Of a DNA stretch of 14,014 nucleotides, positions 5,523 through 7,271 are shown one piece after another (the first letter of the stretch is position 1; each line of letters begins with the position of its first letter). The notes under the pieces are model-generated. The model did not search any database, had not been told where the DNA came from, and was given only the letters and a program-made list of their open reading frames with translations. The stretch covers positions 1 through 14,014 of the forward strand of contig RGAJ01000017.1 of assembly GCA_009920225.1 (NCBI GenBank). The letters run 5' to 3'. A program made the translations under genes and the position numbers. The DNA comes from Paracoccaceae bacterium (GTDB lineage: Bacteria > Pseudomonadota > Alphaproteobacteria > Rhodobacterales > Rhodobacteraceae).

Positions 5523-7271
5523 ATGGCGAAAACCGGCCATGACTTGATACAGGACTATGTCAAAAACCTGGATGGATCGCCGGGCGTGTATCGTATGCTA
5601 GATGCTCAGGCACGGGTCTTATATGTTGGTAAAGCTCGCAATTTGAAAAATCGTGTTTCCAATTATGCGCGCCCAACGGGTCATTCTGGGCGGATTGCGC
5701 GGATGATTTCCGAAACCACACAGATGATGTTTCTGACCACCAAAACCGAAACCGAAGCGTTGTTGTTAGAGCAAAACCTGATCAAGCAACTCAAGCCACG
5801 ATACAACGTTTTGCTGCGTGACGATAAATCGTTTCCCAATATTTTGGTGACCACCGATCATGAATTTCCCATGATCAAAAAACATCGTGGCGCGAAAAAG
5901 GAAAAGGGTGCTTATTATGGACCTTTCGCATCGGCGGGTGCCGTCAACTTTACGCTTGCGCAATTGCAGCGGGTGTTCATGTTGCGCAATTGTTCGGATG
6001 CGATGTTTGTGACCCGCACCCGTCCCTGTCTGCAATATCAGATCAAACGATGCACGGGCCCATGTGTCGGGAAAATTTCGCGCGACGCATATGATGAGTC
6101 CGTAAAAGACGCCCAGAAATTTCTGTCGGGGAAATCAACCCAGATCCAGGAAACCCTTGCCAAACAAATGGCCGCAGCAAGCGAGGCAATGGAATTTGAA
6201 CGCGCCGCAGCGTTGCGCAACCGAATTCGGGCGATGACCCAAGTGCAAACATCACAAGGCATCAACCCACGCACCGTACCCGAAGCGGATATCATTGCCC
6301 TGCACCTAGAAGGCGGACATGCCTGTGTTCAGGTCTTTTTTATCAGAGCAAATCAAAACTGGGGGAACCGCGACTTTTATCCCCGCGTTGCCATCGACAA
6401 TTCGCATGCCGAAGTCATGGAGGCTTTTGTTTCGCAATTCTACGACACCAAGGAACCGCCAAAGCAATTGATCCTGTCCCATGACATTGAAAACGCCGAT
6501 TTGGTGCAAGAAATGCTAAGCGATAAACTGGGTCGCAAGGTGGAAATTTCGGTGCCCCAGCGCGGAGAAAAGCTTGAACTCGTGTCAGGCGCGATGCGAA
6601 ATGCCAAAGAAAGCCTTGCGCGGCGTATGTCGGAAAGTGCGACGCAGGCAAAACTCCTTCGTGGTTTGGCAGAGGCCTTTGATCTGGAAGCGCCACCAGA
6701 ACGGATTGAAGTCTATGACAACTCTCATATCCAAGGGGCCCATGCGGTCGGCGCGATGATCGTCGCGGGACCGGAAGGTATGATGAAAAACCAATATCGC
6801 AAATTCAACATCAAAGGTGATGATATCACCCCGGGTGATGATTTTGGCATGATGAAAGAAGTGATCAAACGGCGCTTTTCTCGTCTGATCAAAGAAGATC
6901 CAGATCGAACATCTGGATCGTGGCCTGACTTGCTTTTGATTGATGGTGGTGCGGGGCAGGTATCGGCGGTGCATGAAATCTTGACCGAACTGGGCGTTGA
7001 CGACGTGTCAATGGTCGGGGTGGCCAAAGGGGTCGACCGGGATCACGGGAAAGAAGAATTCTATGTCGTGGGCAAGCCTGTATTCGCGCTGCAACGCAAT
7101 GATCCGGTGTTGTATTTCGTGCAAAGGCTTCGTGACGAGGCACATCGCTTTGCAATTGGGACGCACCGCAGCAAACGGGCCAAAGCCTTTGTCGCGAATC
7201 CCTTGGATGATATCGCGGGGGGAAAACGGCGCCACGCTGGTTTTATGTCTGATGCATCATCGGCTGCATGA
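5523..7271 (+). CDS. uvrC: UvrABC system protein C, truncated before the helix-hairpin-helix domain
   Basis: The excision-repair nuclease subunit, which cuts both sides of a lesion loaded by UvrAB. The GIY-YIG domain is at 18-95 (GVY, YVGKARNLKNRV with Arg39, and TETEALLLE). Cys157, Cys169, Cys177 and Cys181 have the 12/8/4 spacing of the E. coli iron-sulfur Cys. The UVR domain, which binds UvrB, is at about 204-239 (EAMEFERAAALRNRI). The RNase H-like nuclease has EVYDNSH (Asp399), PGDDFGMM (Asp440), LLIDGG (Asp474) and RDEAHRFAI (His541), so both nuclease centres look intact. The protein is 582 residues, where about 610-630 is usual. After NPLDDIAG (559-566) the (HhH)2 domain is missing and replaced by about 16 unrelated residues. 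Those residues are antisense to the convergent P1 peptidase gene, which it overlaps by 211 bases. No other frame encodes the missing domain. Confidence 0.96.
   Translation: MAKTGHDLIQDYVKNLDGSPGVYRMLDAQARVLYVGKARNLKNRVSNYARPTGHSGRIARMISETTQMMFLTTKTETEALLLEQNLIKQLKPRYNVLLRDDKSFPNILVTTDHEFPMIKKHRGAKKEKGAYYGPFASAGAVNFTLAQLQRVFMLRNCSDAMFVTRTRPCLQYQIKRCTGPCVGKISRDAYDESVKDAQKFLSGKSTQIQETLAKQMAAASEAMEFERAAALRNRIRAMTQVQTSQGINPRTVPEADIIALHLEGGHACVQVFFIRANQNWGNRDFYPRVAIDNSHAEVMEAFVSQFYDTKEPPKQLILSHDIENADLVQEMLSDKLGRKVEISVPQRGEKLELVSGAMRNAKESLARRMSESATQAKLLRGLAEAFDLEAPPERIEVYDNSHIQGAHAVGAMIVAGPEGMMKNQYRKFNIKGDDITPGDDFGMMKEVIKRRFSRLIKEDPDRTSGSWPDLLLIDGGAGQVSAVHEILTELGVDDVSMVGVAKGVDRDHGKEEFYVVGKPVFALQRNDPVLYFVQRLRDEAHRFAIGTHRSKRAKAFVANPLDDIAGGKRRHAGFMSDASSAA

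Follow-up and report, generated by a model that had tools for sequence, protein, structure and literature searches.

Convergent gene overlaps arise when facing genes lose their stops and run into each other's antisense strand. The arfA and mscL genes of Escherichia coli also face each other. Their transcripts overlap at the 3' ends and are reported as a regulated pair (PMC10070815), and the length, phase and orientation of prokaryotic gene overlaps in general are treated in PMC2174442. The C-terminal domain of the excision repair protein UvrC is described in PMC7835731 as needed for binding of single-stranded DNA and for 5' incision, and as possibly helping 3' incision in some contexts. According to PMC9426483, the (HhH)2 region of UvrC is reduced or missing in the aligned Helicobacter species; disruption of the motif in H. 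pylori did not markedly raise susceptibility to ultraviolet light there, while E. coli is reported to need both motifs. Here we describe a uvrC gene that overlaps a facing P1 (S58) peptidase gene in a 14,014-base stretch of DNA (the window), which is the entire contig C69 of a draft genome (586 contigs totalling 2,429,479 bases; estimated completeness 92.3% and contamination 2.66%). The encoded UvrC has lost its (HhH)2 domain at the joint with the peptidase gene, probably through a small deletion at the border of the two genes.

Extent of the two genes and the joint between them

The uvrC open reading frame (5523..7271, forward strand, 582 amino acids) and that of the peptidase (7061..8209, reverse strand, 382 amino acids) overlap tail to tail by 211 bases, in agreement with an earlier, sequence-only reading of the window. 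Relatives of the two proteins were drawn from the best 120 of 7999 scored proteins for each, and the statements below on listed proteins cover those rows. The 31 near-identical UvrC proteins among them (P0002 to P0032, 97 to 98% identity) are all 615 amino acids long. Over residues 1 to 567 the window UvrC differs from them at one to six positions, always including residue 567, which is G in the window and V in all 31, and the sequence after this residue is unrelated. P0002 is identical to the window protein at residues 1 to 566 and, over residues 1 to 567, differs at the last alone.

The models for the GIY-YIG, UVR and RNase H-like domains (PF01541, PF02151, PF22920 and PF08459, the RNase H-like domain being represented by two models) all match the window UvrC above their cut-offs, and the match to TIGR00194 (543 bits against a cut-off of 285) reaches residue 567. 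No HhH model of Pfam or NCBIfam matches it at E <= 0.001. PF12826/PF14520 is annotated in 118 of the 120 listed UvrC proteins, the exceptions being the window's own protein (P0001) and P0109, which ends inside that domain on a contig of 2508 bases and was probably cut short by the contig end. The structure of the C-terminal part of E. coli UvrC (1kft) matches P0003 at residues 556 to 608 (E = 1.9e-4) and gives no match to the window UvrC at E <= 0.001. UvrC has lost 49 residues, the whole of its C-terminal (HhH)2 DNA-binding domain. The only uvrC match in this genome is on the window contig, and the missing end of the gene was not found elsewhere in the genome (E <= 0.001; estimated completeness, 92.3%).

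The peptidase retains the full S58 domain (PF03576, Pfam only; residues 8 to 316, profile positions 1 to 297 of 307). It was compared with one near-identical cluster representative, P0121 (84 members), which has 331 amino acids, is 99% identical and ends in WRRFRA. The two agree up to WRRF, the last shared residue being F329 (7223-7225), after which the window protein continues with 53 foreign residues; by its coordinates this tail lies over uvrC, and it also matches the uvrC antisense strand of many relatives. With 329 of 331 residues kept, the window peptidase may still work with its tail.

The uvrC-derived part thus extends over 5523..7221 on the forward strand (codons 1 to 566 and base 1 of codon 567) and the peptidase-derived part over 7222..8209 on the reverse strand (codons 1 to 329 and one base of codon 330). 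They abut at about 7221/7222, within a run of six G residues (7217..7222, not assigned to a strand). Beyond the joint, a foreign UvrC tail (7222..7271, forward strand; the end of codon 567, residues 568 to 582 and the stop) is encoded by the antisense strand of the peptidase gene, and a foreign peptidase tail (7061..7221, reverse strand; the rest of codon 330, residues 331 to 382 and the stop) by that of uvrC. The sequence-only reading had placed the two family ends around the same run, near 7220 and 7229, within 7 bases of the positions found here; the alignment with homologues that it had proposed sets the limits of family match at UvrC residue 566/567 and peptidase residue 329. Its proposal that one break removed both natural 3' ends fits the comparison with the near-identical UvrC proteins and with P0121.

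Because the codon for V567 is GTN, uvrC homology ends at 7221 or before, and because every arginine codon possible for R330 has G in the middle, peptidase homology reaches no lower than 7222; therefore no base is common to both sides of the joint. If codon 566 is GGG and codon 330 is CGN in the intact genes, as the letters of the window allow, the two sides would abut with nothing inserted, and the joint was probably blunt and formed without a repeat. A deletion between short direct repeats (the RKR codons of uvrC and the end of the peptidase gene, which read alike in some relatives) was also considered; it would account for the break, which is about 12 bases upstream of the RKR codons, only with a second deletion. 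Missing are about 149 bases of uvrC, counted from the last part of codon 567 through the stop, together with about 8 bases of the peptidase gene and the spacer. Since the stops of the two genes lie -4 to +23 bp apart in ten relatives with the facing order (an overlap of 4 bases at most), about 153 to 180 bp would have been lost from the intact arrangement.

Gene order around uvrC in relatives

In G001, a genome of the same genus, the peptidase gene faces uvrC with the stops 23 bp apart, and the gene order is that of the window (hemC, hemE, sppA, CaCA antiporter, SDR, uvrC, facing peptidase, DUF2125, ChaC, MotA-like, OmpA-like). For the M23 gene at the window's right end, the 32 kb of G001 that were compared gave no match at E <= 1e-5, and the common order is shown as far as the OmpA-like gene. 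Downstream of uvrC in 80 named loci, pgsA was found within 4 kb in 46, the peptidase gene within 1.5 kb in 10, and neither in 23, one locus being too short. The peptidase gene directly faces uvrC in nine of the 80 (L034, L035, L036, L037, L041, L042, L044, L055 and L093), which together with G001 are the ten relatives used for the stop-to-stop distance. At L066, which is outside the clade in the UvrC tree, the peptidase gene lies 807 bp from uvrC, and this locus was excluded from the gap table for that distance. The peptidase gene was not seen in 28 other uvrC loci compared, in flanks of about 1.5 kb or less.

In the UvrC tree the nine facing loci and G001 group with the window and with three rows of near UvrC proteins in a single set of 14 rows (Shimodaira-Hasegawa-like approximate likelihood ratio test, SH-aLRT, 98); the tree is midpoint rooted, and because the three protein rows are unlabelled for neighbourhood, the number of changes (4) comes out higher. 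The facing order of uvrC and the peptidase gene is common to one clade, and uvrC-pgsA is the state of other lineages. The neighbourhood of uvrC and pgsA that the sequence-only reading had given for Rhodobacteraceae therefore holds elsewhere but is not the state of this clade. In G001, pgsA, moaD and moaE lie together on contig C15 and uvrC on C12; in the window's own genome a partial pgsA, below the family cut-off, was found at the end of contig C136. One branch of Rhodobacteraceae-type genomes thus carries a facing uvrC and P1 peptidase pair in place of uvrC-pgsA. Separately, uvrC of another genome of the same family (G015:C1:1607435-1609146) was found as two overlapping matches with three TGA codons inside the first, which suggests a frameshift or sequencing error.

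Farther to the right, the window contains a MotA/TolQ-like and OmpA/MotB-like gene pair (9555-12994) with partial PADLOC matches, the best being to ZorA (E = 4.4e-11) and ZorB (E = 3.6e-21). The pair occupies the same place in G001, L035, L036, L037 and L044, which makes a housekeeping pair of the clade more likely than a phage-defence island. A second tail-to-tail overlap, of four bases (12991-12994), joins the OmpA-like gene (10805-12994, forward strand) and the M23-type metallopeptidase gene (12991-13959, reverse strand). A terminator scan found one site, against a mean of 0.6 in shuffled sequences; no match was found among viral_contigs.

Origin of the joint

From the absence of pgsA and moaDE behind uvrC, the sequence-only reading had suggested a larger rearrangement; this would have brought uvrC and the peptidase gene together, with loss of pgsA and moaDE from behind uvrC. 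That pgsA follows uvrC in more than half of the named loci speaks for this, but the intact facing order in G001 and in nine loci of one branch, together with the placement of pgsA on other contigs in G001 and in this genome, refutes it as the cause of the junction: the neighbourhoods differ by an older change at the level of the clade in which both genes stayed whole, and we consider a larger rearrangement very improbable. Equally improbable is that the short UvrC and long peptidase are the normal forms of the species and their overlap a selected one. Both frames are open in the window, as this would require, yet all 31 listed near-identical UvrC proteins are full length, which refutes the short UvrC as the species norm, and P0121, the single near-identical representative of the peptidase, ends without the tail; the earlier reading had named the opposite finding as what would overturn it. 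Nor is the overlap kept beyond one genome, given that none of those 31 proteins is short and the stops in the ten facing relatives almost touch. Among 109 relatives, 34 have the antisense frame entered by the peptidase open for at least 52 codons (median, 35 codons; 34 codons in G001, L002). As this frame is often open, a long overlap will commonly follow from the loss of both stops and does not point to selection.

There remain a deletion in the strain and an artefact of assembly or library, in which the border is intact in the strain and a false join, made by a chimeric read, by gap filling or by mixed strains, dropped the same stretch of about 153 to 180 bp. We favour, with some confidence, a recent local deletion across the border of two convergent and almost abutting genes in the living strain; an artefact is a substantial possibility, though the lesser one. 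Several observations weigh against the deletion or for an artefact. The short form of UvrC is on one contig, compared with 80 contigs (by summing) behind P0002 to P0032; the draft, of 2.43 Mb, is broken into 586 contigs, and some contamination is estimated. Away from the joint the two proteins show little or no change, as though the strain were unaffected. The size of the deletion and the joint are derived from proteins and more distant DNA rather than from near-identical intact DNA, and spontaneous deletions in bacteria do not usually leave a joint that has no bases in common. The same-genus genome G002 is of no help, as its uvrC match covers residues 1 to 136 at a contig end and it gave no match to the peptidase or to the end of uvrC. 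On the other side, with no base shared at the joint, there is no repeat able to mislead an assembler, and the collapse of a repeat of assembly-word length would not be expected; chance ligation mostly joins distant pieces, unlike here, where the genes keep their order and orientation. The next gene, for a DUF2125 protein, encodes 239 amino acids, the same length as its closest relative P0241 (98% identity), and is the only neighbour in the window that was compared with near-identical relatives. On balance it is somewhat likelier that the deletion is genuine and recent, that the living strain carries it and that UvrC is impaired by it.

Such a deletion would have started from intact convergent genes that nearly touched, in a single strain whose uncultured species is close to metagenome-assembled genomes named Paracoccaceae or Rhodobacteraceae. 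It would have taken codons 567 to 615 and the stop from uvrC, then the spacer, and from the peptidase gene its final two codons and its stop. Each reading frame would then continue in the antisense strand of the other gene until a stop occurred by chance, leaving the 3'-3' overlap of 211 bases.

Consequences and comparison with known systems

The locus reflects either an isolated small deletion or a mistake of assembly, and in neither case is a new biological system revealed. If the deletion is real, it provides a natural strain with a UvrC lacking the (HhH)2 domain and a clean snapshot of the birth of a long 3'-3' gene overlap: when facing genes almost touch, no small deletion across their border can spare either one, and the antisense strand of a conserved gene frequently has enough open frame to lengthen the other. 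If it is an artefact, it calls for caution in reading overlaps from fragmented draft assemblies. A far more speculative outcome, to which we give little credence, is that the deletion is both real and tolerated in the wild, such that a UvrC without (HhH)2 and with an antisense-coded tail supports (altered) excision repair while the peptidase gains an antisense-coded tail of 53 residues, two new protein ends having been created by mutual overprinting.

From what is described for the C-terminal domain, a UvrC without (HhH)2 would be weakened rather than dead, with 5' incision hurt most. Like the UvrC of Helicobacter, the window UvrC is missing the (HhH)2 domain; unlike in Helicobacter, where this is seen across the species aligned, the loss here concerns one strain among full-length relatives and comes with a foreign tail. 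The mechanism would be the same as in known convergent overlapping pairs, except that here both stops would have been lost at once by a deletion, and the overlap, of 211 bases, is seen in one assembly only. In contrast to arfA-mscL, reported as a regulated pair, the overlap described here is new and lacks conservation.
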